Of a stretch of DNA of 64,000 bases, positions 38,183 through 51,929 are shown in pieces. The notes under the pieces were generated by a model that was given only the letters and a program-made list of their open reading frames with translations, did no database searches and was not told the origin of the DNA. The translations under genes and the position numbers were made by a program. The stretch comes from Lutibacter sp. (lineage in GTDB: Bacteria > Bacteroidota > Bacteroidia > Flavobacteriales > Flavobacteriaceae): NCBI GenBank assembly GCA_002733665.1, contig NVWM01000010.1, forward strand, positions 1-64,000, read 5' to 3'. How positions within the stretch are numbered: the stretch's first letter is position 1; each line of letters opens with the position of its first letter.

Positions 38183-38259
38183 TGTCATTCCTGCGTAGGC
38201 AGGAATCTCTTTATTAAATTCTCTTTTATTCTGGATTCCGCATCTTGTGCAGAATGACA
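38183..38259. repeat. A-type and B-type hairpins upstream of the E1 gene
   Basis: TGTCATTCCTGC-gta-GGCAGGAATCTC (38183-38209) is followed by GGATTCCGCA-tcttg-TGCAGAATGACA (38233-38259). The first reaches to within four bases of the E1 start and supplies a spurious upstream ATG (GGAATGACA on the minus strand). Confidence 0.85.
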
Positions 38260-41484: not shown

Positions 41485-42237
41485 TTATTTAAACCCTTTT
41501 AATTTTTCTTTTGTAAAATCACTTAAAACTAACCTTCCACTTGTTTGAGCACGTTTTGCCAATAATGAATCCCAATCTTCAGTTCCTTTCCAAAAAACAG
41601 ATTTCATTTCTTTCATTGCTTCAGTGTTATAAGTACATAAATGTTCTGCTGCAGTTTTTACGGCTTCATCTAATTCTTCATTAGATTCAAAAACATGAGT
41701 AAACAACCCTTTTTGTTTTGCCCATTCTGCAGGATAAAAGGAATTTGCATCAATAGCAATCTGTGACATTCCACTTAATCCTATTTTACGTTCAATTGCT
41801 GGTCCTACTACAAATGGTCCAATACCAATATTTAATTCACTTAGTTTGATTGATGCGAATTTCGATGCCATACAATAATCTGTTGAGGCTGCTAATCCAA
41901 CTCCACCACCTACAGTTTTCCCTTGAATACGTCCAATAATAAACTTTGGACATTTACGCATCGCATTTATCACATTAGCAAATCCAGAAAAGAAAACTTT
42001 TCCTGTTGCTTCATCATTAATGTTGATTAATTCTTTAAAACTTGCTCCAGCACAAAACGTTCTATCTTTTCCGCTTTTCAAAACAATTACTTTGATAGCG
42101 TCATTATTTCCAGCATCAGTAATAGTTTGTGCTAATTCTGCCAAGATATTTCCTGGTAAAGAGTTGTGTGCAGGATGAAAAAACTCTATATATCCTACTT
42201 CGTTTTTGATGTCTAATTTAACGTATGGTGTACTCAT
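41485..42237 (-). CDS. Enoyl-CoA hydratase/isomerase family protein (PaaF-like)
   Basis: A 250-residue crotonase. In this locus it would hydrate the 2,3-dehydroadipyl-CoA intermediate (PaaF role), since a separate PaaG-like gene is also present. The oxyanion-hole segments are FCAGASFKEL near residue 65 and QGKTVGGGVGLAAS near 107. The usual catalytic Glu positions are in LSELNIGIGPFVVGP (Glu of SELN) and less clear at the second site, so the precise reaction is uncertain. The C-terminal part carries the family's helical trimerisation tail. Assignment as paaF is by context. Confidence 0.82.
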   Translation of the reverse strand: MSTPYVKLDIKNEVGYIEFFHPAHNSLPGNILAELAQTITDAGNNDAIKVIVLKSGKDRTFCAGASFKELININDEATGKVFFSGFANVINAMRKCPKFIIGRIQGKTVGGGVGLAASTDYCMASKFASIKLSELNIGIGPFVVGPAIERKIGLSGMSQIAIDANSFYPAEWAKQKGLFTHVFESNEELDEAVKTAAEHLCTYNTEAMKEMKSVFWKGTEDWDSLLAKRAQTSGRLVLSDFTKEKLKGFK

Positions 42238-42247
42238 TTTCTTATTA

Positions 42248-42272
42248 TGTCAATGCGCACTTGTTGCGCATT
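42248..42272 (-). repeat. B-type hairpin at the downstream end of GIY-YIG gene 1
   Basis: Plus strand TGTC-AATGCGCA-cttgt-TGCGCATT: perfect 8-bp stem with an outward TGTCA end. It begins five bases beyond the GIY-YIG stop and is the mirror image of the hairpin at 42612-42636. Confidence 0.85.
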
Positions 42273-42276
42273 CGTA

Positions 42277-42594
42277 TTAATCTTTGTTTTTTATATACTT
42301 TGAAAGATCCCAATCCAAACTTAAATCAACCCAATCAGGATTCATTTCTGTTATTTGATTTATCTTCCATTCTCTTTTCCATTTCTTAATAGTTTTCTCT
42401 CTTCTTATTGCAATTCTAATATCTGAATGCTCTTCGAAGTAAACTAATTTCTTTATATTATAGCGTCCAACGTGTGTTCCGAAAGTTGCATTTTGATGCT
42501 CACTTATTCTTCTTTCAATATTATTAGTTACTCCAACATAAAAGATGTGATTTCTTTCATGTGTTAGAATATATGTGTAATATTTTTTTGACAT
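42277..42594 (-). CDS. Small solitary GIY-YIG nuclease, copy 1
   Basis: A 105-residue protein consisting of a single GIY-YIG domain: YYTYILTHERNHIFYVGVT holds the degenerate GIY and YIG (here YVG) strands, then NNIERRISEH supplies the Arg and His region, and IAIRREKTIKKWKREWKI carries the catalytic Glu and a basic helix. The C-terminus NPDWVDLSLDWDL is typical of this small family. Such solitary domains are presumed DNA endonucleases; their role is unknown. It is out of place inside the phenylacetate operon and is flanked within 5 and 18 bases by inverted hairpins, suggesting it came in as a mobile unit. Confidence 0.88.
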   Translation of the reverse strand: MSKKYYTYILTHERNHIFYVGVTNNIERRISEHQNATFGTHVGRYNIKKLVYFEEHSDIRIAIRREKTIKKWKREWKINQITEMNPDWVDLSLDWDLSKYIKNKD

Positions 42595-42611
42595 TTAGTT
42601 TCATTCAACCG

Positions 42612-42636
42612 ACTGCGCAATAAATGCGCAGTGACA
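42612..42636 (+). repeat. B-type hairpin at the upstream end of GIY-YIG gene 1
   Basis: ACTGCGCA-ataaa-TGCGCAGT followed by GACA: perfect 8-bp stem with an outward TGACA end. With the hairpin at 42248 it forms inverted termini around the GIY-YIG gene. Confidence 0.85.
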
Positions 42637-42639
42637 ATT

Positions 42640-45138
42640 CTACAACAACCCGAACTGTTCAAAGTGATGATTCAAATGTTTCCTTTCCTGTAAATACCAT
42701 TCGTATTTATTTAATTCTCCAAAGACTATATTATTTAATTTTGCATCAGGATTTTCTTTAAAAAACGCTAAATATTCTGCTCTTGCTTCATTCATTTTCT
42801 CTTTAGCAGTTGACAAATCAGGATGATTTAATTTTGCTAATTTATCTTTCTCTAATAATGGAAATTCAGAATTCTTCGGGAATGGTCTGTAATTATACAG
42901 GCTATTATGTACTTTTTCTAGAATTTTTTCTGGTGTTGCAATTTCAAAATCTTGAATTTCTCCTGAAGCAATTCTATAAGTATGTTCCAAGTACTCAATC
43001 ATATGTTGAGGTGTCATAATTCCCCATTTTGGTTTAGCATCTTCAGTTAACTTCGTTAAACATTCTTGAATTTTTTCGCTTGTCATTTCAACAAAGACTT
43101 CTTGCTTCTTTTGAACCATAGTTAAGATTGTTGCTATAGCAACTAACTCGTCTTCAGCATCAAAAACTTCAACAAACCATTTTACAATTCCACTTGGATG
43201 CTCTGCAGATGCAACATCTCTATCAACTTTTTGTTTACAAGTCAATCTAACATAAACTGTGTCATTGTGATATAAAGGACGTAAAAATCGACATTCTTCT
43301 AAACCGTAGTTTGCAGAAACTGGCCCTTTATTAGGATATACAAATAATCCTGCCGCAGCAGAAATAATGAAATAGCCATGTGCTGTTCTTTTTTCGAAAA
43401 TACTTCCCTCTAAAGATGTGATATCTGTATGCGCATAGAAATGATCCCAAGTAACATTGGCAAAATTGATAATATCAGTATCGGTAAACGTACGTTTGTG
43501 AGTCTTCAGTGACATTCCTGGCTGAATGTCTTCCCAATGATATTTAAACGGATGTTGTTCTGCCTCTTTATATTTTGCATTCGGCTGGTAAATACCAGTA
43601 ATTTCGGTTAATGTTGTTGGCGAACCTTGAATGGCAGTACGTTGTAAATAATGTTTTATTCCACGTATTCCACCCATTTCTTCTCCACCTCCAGCACGTC
43701 CTGGACCACCATGAACCAAACTTGGTAATGGCGAACCATGACCTGTACTTTCTTTAGCCATATCACGATTAATCACCATAATTCTTCCGTGATGACTTGC
43801 AGCATTTATAACATATTCTTTAGCAATTTTATCATCATTTGTTGCAATTGAAGAGACCAAAGATCCTTTACCCATTTGTGCTAATAAAATAGCCTCGTCT
43901 AAATTTTTATAAGGCATAATAGTACTTACTGGACCAAATGCTTCTCGTTCGTGAATTGCTGTATTTTGAAAAGGATTGTCTGCTCTTAATAAAATAGGGC
44001 TTATAAAAGCTCCTTTTTTAGCATCCGCACCAATGGTTTCTATTTTGTCTAAACTTCCATAAACAATTTGTGCTTCTTTTGCTAAATCATTAACAGAATC
44101 TCTAACTGCTTGTACTTGTTGATGACTTATTAAAGATCCCATTCTCACTTCTTTCAGTCTTGGATCTCCAATTGTCACTTTGTCTAATGCTTTTCCTAAT
44201 GAAATTTGAACATCTTCAATTAAGTTTTCTGGAACGATAATTCTCCTTATTGCAGTACATTTTTGACCTGCTTTTACAGTTATTTCTTTTCTTACTTCTT
44301 TGATAAATAAATCAAATTCTGGCGTTCCTGGAACTGCATCTTCACCTAAAATAGAAGCGTTTAAAGAATCGGCTTCCATCGTAAAAGGAACTGCTTCTTG
44401 AATAATTCGTGGATGTGCTTTTAATATTCTTCCTATTGCTGCAGAACCTGTAAAAGTTACAACATCTTGAGACTCTACTGTATCTAAAATTGTTTTAACG
44501 GTTCCGTTTATTATTTGTAGCGCACCTTCTGGTAAAATTCCAGATGCGATAATTTCTTTTGCAACTGCTTCTGCTAAATAAGAGGATGATGGTGCTGGTA
44601 ACACCACAGCAGGAACTCCAGCCATCCAATTAACAGCACATTTTTCTAACATTCCCCAAACTGGGAAATTGAAAGCATTTATATGTACAGCAACTCCTTT
44701 TTTAGGTACCATGATGTGATGTGCCATAAAGCGTCCACCACGAGATAAATCAATAGCATCACCTTCTACATGGTAGGACTGATTTGGAAATAATTTCCTT
44801 AAAGATGCATTGGCAAATAAATTTCCAAAACCACCTTCTATATCGATCCAACTATCAACTTTGGTTGCTCCAGTCCTATAACTTAATTCGTAGAAATCAT
44901 TCTTTCGTTTTGTAAGATATAATGCTAATTTCTTAAGCATGTTCCCACGTTCTTGAAAAGTCATTTTTCGAAGGACTTCACCTCCTTTTGTTCTTCCGTA
45001 GTTTAAGATTTCAGGAATGTCTAATCCTTCAATAGCAACACTTGTAAATGCTTCGCCTGTGATTGCATCCAATACTGGAATTCCTTCTTCTTTTCCTTCA
45101 GTCCATTGACCTTGAACGTAATGTTGTATTTTTTTCAT
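42640..45138 (-). CDS. paaZ: PaaZ: aldehyde dehydrogenase / MaoC hydratase, with an extra C-terminal DUF1569-like domain
   Basis: PaaZ opens the oxepin-CoA ring (MaoC hydratase) and oxidises the resulting aldehyde (NADP-dependent dehydrogenase). Residues 1 to about 520 are the dehydrogenase (Glu in FTMEADSLN, catalytic Cys in KAGQKCTAIRR). About 535-678 is the MaoC domain (FANVTWDHFYAHTD). E. coli PaaZ ends at 681 residues, but this protein has 832. The extra 154 residues (MTPQHMIEYLEHTYR ... NPDAKLNNIVFGELN ... ERKHLNHHFEQFGLL) resemble a DUF1569/DinB-like helical domain with several histidines able to bind metal. The ATG at 45138 is clear. Confidence 0.93.
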   Translation of the reverse strand: MKKIQHYVQGQWTEGKEEGIPVLDAITGEAFTSVAIEGLDIPEILNYGRTKGGEVLRKMTFQERGNMLKKLALYLTKRKNDFYELSYRTGATKVDSWIDIEGGFGNLFANASLRKLFPNQSYHVEGDAIDLSRGGRFMAHHIMVPKKGVAVHINAFNFPVWGMLEKCAVNWMAGVPAVVLPAPSSSYLAEAVAKEIIASGILPEGALQIINGTVKTILDTVESQDVVTFTGSAAIGRILKAHPRIIQEAVPFTMEADSLNASILGEDAVPGTPEFDLFIKEVRKEITVKAGQKCTAIRRIIVPENLIEDVQISLGKALDKVTIGDPRLKEVRMGSLISHQQVQAVRDSVNDLAKEAQIVYGSLDKIETIGADAKKGAFISPILLRADNPFQNTAIHEREAFGPVSTIMPYKNLDEAILLAQMGKGSLVSSIATNDDKIAKEYVINAASHHGRIMVINRDMAKESTGHGSPLPSLVHGGPGRAGGGEEMGGIRGIKHYLQRTAIQGSPTTLTEITGIYQPNAKYKEAEQHPFKYHWEDIQPGMSLKTHKRTFTDTDIINFANVTWDHFYAHTDITSLEGSIFEKRTAHGYFIISAAAGLFVYPNKGPVSANYGLEECRFLRPLYHNDTVYVRLTCKQKVDRDVASAEHPSGIVKWFVEVFDAEDELVAIATILTMVQKKQEVFVEMTSEKIQECLTKLTEDAKPKWGIMTPQHMIEYLEHTYRIASGEIQDFEIATPEKILEKVHNSLYNYRPFPKNSEFPLLEKDKLAKLNHPDLSTAKEKMNEARAEYLAFFKENPDAKLNNIVFGELNKYEWYLQERKHLNHHFEQFGLL

Positions 45139-45149
45139 AATTTTATTTT

Positions 45150-45214
45150 GTCATTCCTGCGAAGGCAGGAATCTATTCAATTTATTATGGATTCCGCATC
45201 AAGTGCGGAATGAC
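45150..45214. repeat. A-type and B-type hairpins upstream of paaZ
   Basis: TGTCATTCCTGC-gaa-GGCAGGAATCT (45150-45173) and TGGATTCCGCA-tcaag-TGCGGAATGACA (45188-45214). Same pair and order as at 38183-38259. Confidence 0.88.
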
Positions 45215-45269
45215 AGTTTGTATTAAACTTTTTTCAATGTTTTACATTGATGTTGTTTTATTCTCGATT

Positions 45270-51614: not shown

Positions 51615-51929
51615 TTACTTTCTAATTTTATTAAAATTTAAATTCCAGTTGATACTTAAATCTGACCAACTTGGATTCATTTCTTCTATTAATTCAATTT
51701 TCCAATCTCTTTTCCATTTTTTGAATTGTCTTTCCCTTTTTTCAGCATCTCTACCATTTTCAAACTCTTCAAAATAAATCAATTTATCACAATTATATTT
51801 TGCTGTGAATGCTTTCGGAAATATTTTTAATCTGTGCTCTTTTACTCTTTCTTCAATATTATCAGTTACACCAATATAAATTACTCCATTACGCTTATTT
51901 GCCATAATATAGACATACCAATGGTTCAT
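51615..51929 (-). CDS. Small solitary GIY-YIG nuclease, copy 2
   Basis: A 104-residue single GIY-YIG domain: WYVYIMANKRNGVIYIGVT, NIEERVKEHRL, FENGRDAEKRERQFKKWKRD with the catalytic Glu, and the C-terminal NPSWSDLSINWNL. It is clearly related to copy 1 at 42277 but well diverged (about half the residues differ), so the two are not a recent duplicate. It lies between paaA and paaB, eight bases after the paaA stop, and has hairpins on both sides, as copy 1 does. Confidence 0.88.
   Translation of the reverse strand: MNHWYVYIMANKRNGVIYIGVTDNIEERVKEHRLKIFPKAFTAKYNCDKLIYFEEFENGRDAEKRERQFKKWKRDWKIELIEEMNPSWSDLSINWNLNFNKIRK

Follow-up and report, generated by a model that had tools for sequence, protein, structure and literature searches.

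A small GIY-YIG nuclease gene and two inverted hairpins form a compact unit in the window, the whole stretch of 64,000 nucleotides of Lutibacter sp. DNA that was analysed. We consider this unit to be a minimal cassette that is gained and lost and whose hairpins are most likely the target of the nuclease, a reading to which we assign a probability of roughly 60%. Many GIY-YIG subfamilies appear to have such cassettes, with a different hairpin for each subfamily, and the nucleases as a group look like the dedicated enzymes of the REP repeats that carry a CGTC or TGTC tag.

The gene (42277-42594, minus strand) codes for a single-domain protein of 105 amino acids that matches Pfam PF01541 (E 5.6e-15). 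GIY-YIG and the related T5orf172 are its only Pfam matches; no NCBIfam family was found for it at E 0.001, and four relatives have only weak NCBIfam matches that stay below the cut-off. The residues Y8, Y19, G21, R29, H33 and E66 are invariant in the nine GIY-YIG paralogues of the same genome. We call the group to which the window protein belongs the THVG subfamily, which is our own label. The hairpin upstream of the gene (42608-42636, minus strand) consists of a TGTC tag, an 8-bp stem (ACTGCGCA/TGCGCAGT), a 5-nt loop and the tail CGG. The downstream hairpin (42248-42276, plus strand) is inverted relative to the upstream one and has a TGTC tag, the stem AATGCGCA/TGCGCATT, a 5-nt loop and the tail CGT. 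Both 8-bp stems are perfect, and stems and loops together occupy 42252-42272, 4 bases 3′ of the stop codon, and 42612-42632, 17 bases 5′ of the start codon. Folded as single-stranded DNA, both hairpins are far more stable than shuffled sequences on both strands (z of −4.7 and −5.3 for the upstream hairpin, −3.5 and −3.8 for the downstream hairpin). The whole cassette (42248-42636, 389 bp, outer ends TGTCA...TGACA) contains the 318-base gene and the two hairpins and is located in the gap between a paaF-like enoyl-CoA hydratase gene (41485-42237) and paaZ (42640-45138). These coordinates confirm the first-pass annotation, which had described a 318-base GIY-YIG gene bounded by outward 8-bp hairpins as a 389-base unit between paaZ and the paaF-like gene; only its spacings of 5 and 18 bases had to be corrected, to 4 and 17.

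The hairpins had also been assigned to the same broad family as the repeats scattered around them. This is right as regards architecture, with a GTC tag, an 8-bp stem and a loop of 4-5 nt, but not as regards the stem sequence, since the TGCGCA-loop-TGCGCA stem has its sole place in the 2.7-Mb genome in the window cassette (two copies, one unit). Altogether, 12 GTC-tagged hairpins with a stem of at least 7 were found in the window. Five sequences from an order-2 Markov model contained 2, 2, 2, 4 and 2 such hairpins, and the reversed window contained 7; three of the 12 (at 1277, 4564 and 40328) look like chance occurrences. The CATTCC-type repeat occurs 60 times in the genome. Two CATTCC-type hairpin pairs without a gene were identified in the window by the tagged-hairpin scan, one in the gap between the thiolase gene and paaZ (45149-45215) and a second, outward-tagged pair at 38183-38259. 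In the genomes G010 and G013 the thiolase/paaZ gap contains a GIY-YIG gene (L020, L022) where the window has the hairpin pair. The window contains another small GIY-YIG gene, C33b (51615-51929, minus strand, 104 amino acids), whose hairpins are degenerate and whose unit is missing from G010 and G018.

PF01541 matches 11 places in the 2.7-Mb genome: a UvrC gene and ten small genes, of which one is truncated. When the flanks of the ten small units were inspected by eye, outward-tagged hairpins were seen on both sides of seven and on one side of one; one unit (C6) has both hairpins reversed and one (C33b) has degenerate hairpins. The strict hairpin scanner flags four of the ten. The tags of the C6 unit (G000:C6, L014) both point toward the gene, which is the opposite of the usual order. 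In the truncated copy, C16, the reading frame continues into the hairpin. The hairpins can be sorted by subfamily: TGCGCA belongs to the window gene, TCGAGCG.AGTCGA to C14, C2 and C6, TTCCCAC/ATTCCTGC to C30 and C16, CCTGAACTTGTTTCAGG to C7a and C7b, and TCATTCTGA... to C5. Hairpin types among GIY-YIG relatives include the CATTCC type and the CCTGAACTTG type. On the Planktothrix agardhii plasmid NZ_LR882964.1 (L257), TGTCATTCTGAG repeats accompany a small GIY-YIG gene whose neighbours are an MmeI-type restriction gene on one side and the DISARM gene drmA on the other.

The first-pass annotation had proposed to score whether hairpins with TGTCA/TGACA ends flank the GIY-YIG family of the window gene more often than expected by chance; in several GIY-YIG subfamilies, outward-tagged hairpins bound the gene far more often than that. 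For A2, a large subfamily, a six-protein profile yielded 80 loci, the record titles of which span more than 10 phylum-level groups; 78 were counted, two being dropped because their flanks were too short, and 144 other genes from the same loci served as control. Outward GTC hairpins were present on both sides at 47 of the 78 A2-type loci and at none of the 144 control genes, and on at least one side at 67 of 78 compared with 8 of 144. The tags at the A2-type loci point outward rather than inward in 55 versus 18 cases upstream and in 59 versus 14 cases downstream. An inverted match between the upstream and downstream flank with a score of at least 16 was found at 52 of the 78 loci and at one of the 144 controls. 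Even if the tag is not required, GTC is the triplet immediately outside the nearest stem in 45 of 57 cases upstream and in 51 of 72 downstream, and 34 of the 57 upstream hairpins have the inner tail CCA. Over all GIY-YIG units, the strict scan flagged 104 of 206 with tagged hairpins; in a phylum-wide sample of 29 loci chosen by Pfam score, only four units were flagged. The hairpin association is restricted to some GIY-YIG subfamilies and is not a general property.

Hairpin and protein also vary together. In the 98 distinct units that have a tagged hairpin, the distances between proteins correlate with the distances between their hairpins (Mantel r 0.66; none of 5000 permutations as high). With family labels assigned by our own regular expressions, the median hairpin distances within and outside a group are 0.20 and 0.43 for the A2-type (59 units), 0.10 and 0.52 for the RTTFY-type (6 units) and 0.14 and 0.52 for the THVG-type (9 units); no within-group likeness was found for LLYTG (2 units) and for the unlabelled units (22). 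The analogy to RAYT transposases and their REPs that had been drawn from the window alone gains from this result, since the hairpin goes with the enzyme, as an analogue would require. In the window subfamily, 24 hairpins from 12 genomes have 14 different stems; of their 192 stem cells, 186 are Watson-Crick pairs, a count biased toward pairing because the best-paired GTC site was picked for each hairpin. Two-sided changes occur at six of the eight stem positions (1, 2, 3, 4, 7 and 8). Because of this pairing and these two-sided changes, stem pairing is, subject to the site-picking bias, kept in the window subfamily while the sequence drifts. Passive company, in which REP repeats common in intergenic gaps flank a GIY-YIG gene by chance, would be in line with the many tagged hairpins of the genome. 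It is contradicted by the A2-type enrichment with its empty two-sided control and by the covariation of protein and hairpin, and the restriction of the TGCGCA stem to the cassette argues against it as well; we regard this explanation as barely credible.

Repeats of the CATTCC type are associated with A2-type genes at the level of whole genomes too. Among 120 genomes of the family, at least three exact CATTCC repeats were found in 10 of the 15 genomes that have an A2-type gene and in 10 of the 105 that lack one (p 3e-6), and at least five in 6 of 15 and 6 of 105, respectively (p 8e-4); in both comparisons the cut for the presence of an A2-type gene (E 1e-38) was set after the list had been seen, and the hairpins of the unit itself enter the repeat count of its genome. 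At least one CATTCC repeat is present in 25 of the 105 genomes without an A2-type gene, as decayed systems would leave them.

Of 397 genomes in the family, 12 have a homologue of the window protein with E 1e-30 or better, its own genome among them. The other 11 homologues, from ten other genera, are all located in the paaZ/paaF gap and have hairpins of the TGCGCA class or compensated variants of it. Relatives in conserved positions without hairpins had been named in advance as evidence against a hairpin-bounded unit; the 11 homologues are conserved in position but are flanked by hairpins. On the basis of their common location in these genomes we reject free recent transposition of the window unit, and the earlier idea of a mobile unit is not supported in the sense of a freely jumping element; its stem also has no other place in its genome. 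The cassette is absent from the paaZ/paaF gap in G010, G013, G018, G021 and G022. A set of 42 paaZ/paaF loci, with states assigned by eye, contains seven THVG-type units and two genes of another subfamily (G218 and G290), which have TTCCCAC-like hairpins without a clear GTC tag; the set is not random but consists of the 30 best-scoring loci and a further 12 chosen because their gaps are long or because they had been of interest before. Gene-free hairpins were found at eight of these loci (six pairs, two singles) and decayed remnants at three; of the remainder, three loci hold other genes, 13 are empty and short, and six have a longer gap in which no hairpin is evident. The paaZ/paaF site is re-used, and the window subfamily was found nowhere else among the 397 genomes.

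The confinement of all 11 homologues to one gap might also be explained by a free-standing endonuclease of the homing type that cuts the empty paaZ/paaF junction, with the hairpins being incidental. We reject homing at this site as the whole story on account of the occupants of the 42 loci, where other subfamilies, hairpin pairs and unrelated genes are found; in addition, close relatives keep empty sites and the hairpins co-vary with the protein, so that we consider homing with incidental hairpins very improbable.

For the window unit and its 11 unit-bearing relatives, distances between the GIY-YIG proteins correlate with those of paaZ (r 0.60, p 0.003) and not with those of paaF (r 0.03); distances of the adjoining genes paaF and paaZ, compared in unit-bearing genomes only, are themselves uncorrelated (r 0.04, p 0.35). 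This pattern fits inheritance of the unit together with paaZ and recombination nearby. It might also point to a pair of nuclease and repeat that serves the host. The enzyme would then act on its repeats when single-stranded DNA enters the cell or is replicated and would thereby adjust uptake or recombination, and the apparent mobility would be ordinary gain and loss through homologous recombination: the unit follows paaZ, and the disagreement of paaF and paaZ looks as if recombination breaks near the unit. Work on the nuclease Ssn and its repeat NTS in Neisseria, which reportedly deals with transformation, would agree with such a role. The patchy presence, the decay and the many subfamilies per genome look selfish, however, and we consider a host-serving pair unlikely.

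Gain and loss of the cassettes can be followed at orthologous sites. For all ten small GIY-YIG loci of the window genome, the gene is absent from the orthologous gap in at least one compared relative, and at the C7a site another gene occupies the gap. Empty sites in sister strains had been proposed as a check, and close relatives with an empty paaZ/paaF gap do exist. A hairpin pair is found instead of the gene in G013 at paaZ/paaF, in G010 at mutS2/ung, in G012 at the C14 site and in G004 at the C2 site. On Sphingobium plasmids, seven records have a GIY-YIG unit in the gap between fnrL and a response regulator gene and four do not. Alignment with four of the seven unit records showed that two of the four unit-free records contain a single palindrome that is flanked by GTC at one end and by GAC at the opposite end, which is the outcome expected from deletion between the two stems. 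Sinorhizobium was rejected as an empty-site case, since the compared record carries the gene too. The hairpin-only, empty, gene-bearing and decayed states look like gain and loss of cassettes of a nuclease and its cognate repeat.

These sites also bear on whether the hairpins are RNA elements, either autoregulatory or terminators, so that the enzyme, or only ribosome and polymerase, handles mRNA hairpins beside the start and stop codons. The upstream hairpin lies at a median of 18 nt from the start codon at the A2-type loci, close to the distance in the window, and the hairpins fold equally well on either strand. Gene-free hairpins, as pairs in other gaps and as the plasmid scar, are not expected for such elements, and outward tags on both sides are not needed for RNA regulation, which makes RNA elements an improbable explanation. 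As to insertion-sequence traits, empty sites were found, but neither a duplication nor, in the window genome, any recent dispersed copy. Neither a target-site duplication nor a clean donor-target pair was seen in the set of one genome per species. In four GIY-rich genomes, for which 30 of 73 matched places were compared, the comparison for near-identical copies scattered within a genome yielded no more than one, which lies about 9 kb away from a tandem array on the same contig; the matched places are mostly tandem arrays, plus tRNA-linked copies of another family. One such row (G090:C34:6991-9748) contains eight GIY-YIG matches, most of them about 364 bp apart. Members of a different GIY-YIG family lie directly behind tRNA genes in L196 (G169:C1, approximately 1733900-1734700) and in L235 and L240 (G107, C7 and C14). 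L196 has three tandem GIY-YIG copies, each with a partial tRNA-like piece, and after the last copy a complete-looking tRNA follows.

We infer recognition of the hairpins, nicking and cassette movement from sequence comparisons, and the cassette reading could work as follows. The enzyme would nick its own hairpin near the GTC tag in single-stranded DNA, as might arise on the lagging strand, during DNA uptake or in repair, and the nicked ends would be copied or rejoined by host repair. Since the stems are palindromic, the two hairpins also contain direct repeats, so that the gene could be deleted by slippage or recombination, with either a hairpin pair or one GTC-hairpin-GAC scar left behind. 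An exchange in the opposite direction may carry a gene into a hairpin pair. The window cassette would be an old resident of the paaZ/paaF gap that is inherited along with paaZ and frequently lost.

In many bacteria, the hairpins beside related genes differ in step with the enzyme, so that GIY-YIG enzymes appear to be the partners that a widespread class of short DNA repeats has so far lacked. More broadly, GIY-YIG nucleases might be the missing dedicated enzymes of the CGTC/TGTC-tagged REP superfamily in bacteria at large. Such a REP system would be a second one of independent origin, would spread through hydrolytic nicks in single-stranded hairpins where RAYTs rely on HUH transposition, and would have a hairpin specificity that diversifies with the enzyme; we put this forward tentatively and give it slightly less than an even chance. 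A 2013 survey left the mobiliser of these repeats, among them Neisseria dRS3 and Rickettsia RPE-4/6, unsettled (Di Nocera et al., 2013; PMC3733652). If each repeat type has a cognate nuclease, a single protein of some 100 residues and a single 29-base oligonucleotide would be enough to test the question. The covariation moreover offers many pairs of enzyme and target for single-stranded DNA that are ready for use.

CGTC-tagged REPs, as described in the survey, have an unpaired CGTC or TGTC tag at one end, a stem of 8-9 bp, a loop of 4-5 nt and a CCA tail, form head-to-head pairs and are without a dedicated transposase (PMC3733652); the survey does not name GIY-YIG. The GTC tag and the CCA tail seen at the A2-type loci belong to these features. 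Judged against this description, the window hairpins agree in having TGTC at both outer ends, 8-bp stems and 5-nt loops, and they differ in their TGCGCA stem, which is confined to a single unit, and in the tails CGG and CGT instead of CCA. CGTC REPs are present in many copies, whereas the window stem has two copies only, compared with 60 for the CATTCC type. Stem positions 1 and 2, which are complementary A-T in CGTC REPs, are AA in one window hairpin and AC in the other. Because the tail is not CCA and only two copies exist, the window hairpin would be a divergent relative of the CGTC REPs and not a member of the four families described in the survey.

Small GIY-YIG proteins of the UPF0213 group (PDB 1zg2, 1ywl) are matched by the own-genome profile with E 4e-12 and 8e-11 and are alike in fold and length. 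We know of no repeat association for them. Ssn, according to a 2025 study in Neisseria, is said to be a site-specific GIY-YIG nuclease that acts on single-stranded DNA at the NTS repeat and has many homologues. It would share with the window enzyme the small single-domain architecture and a cognate dispersed repeat; the window member belongs to a different subfamily with another hairpin. The GIY-YIG homologue of N. gonorrhoeae sits among CGTCATTCCCGC repeats of the dRS3 type, one of them directly 3′ of the stop codon, which agrees with the reported Ssn/NTS pairing. Two N. gonorrhoeae records of 2.17 Mb, NZ_CP119142.1 and NZ_CP119140.1, are chromosome-sized and filed as plasmids. To our knowledge, the Ssn account includes neither cassettes of gene and hairpins in empty, paired and decayed states nor a link to CGTC REPs. 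Among openly licensed papers no printed link between GIY-YIG enzymes and REPs was found. The proposal of a new kind of system is weakened by the reported Ssn/NTS pairing, with which, if it is right, the biochemical pairing of enzyme and repeat is already known in kind. What looks new is the connection to the CGTC REPs as a class, together with the covariation of the hairpins and the different states of the cassettes.

A parallel in organisation is offered by RAYT (TnpA-REP) and the REPINs. RAYTs are HUH tyrosine transposases that are associated with GTAG REPs and REPINs, and their repeats are enzyme-specific. Both systems place a small nuclease gene between inverted tagged hairpins of its own repeat, and both have non-autonomous pairs elsewhere in the genome and enzyme-specific repeats. 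A RAYT as the window enzyme is ruled out by the fold, which is GIY-YIG and not that of an HUH tyrosine transposase; the tag is GTC and not GTAG, and no covalent intermediate would be expected.
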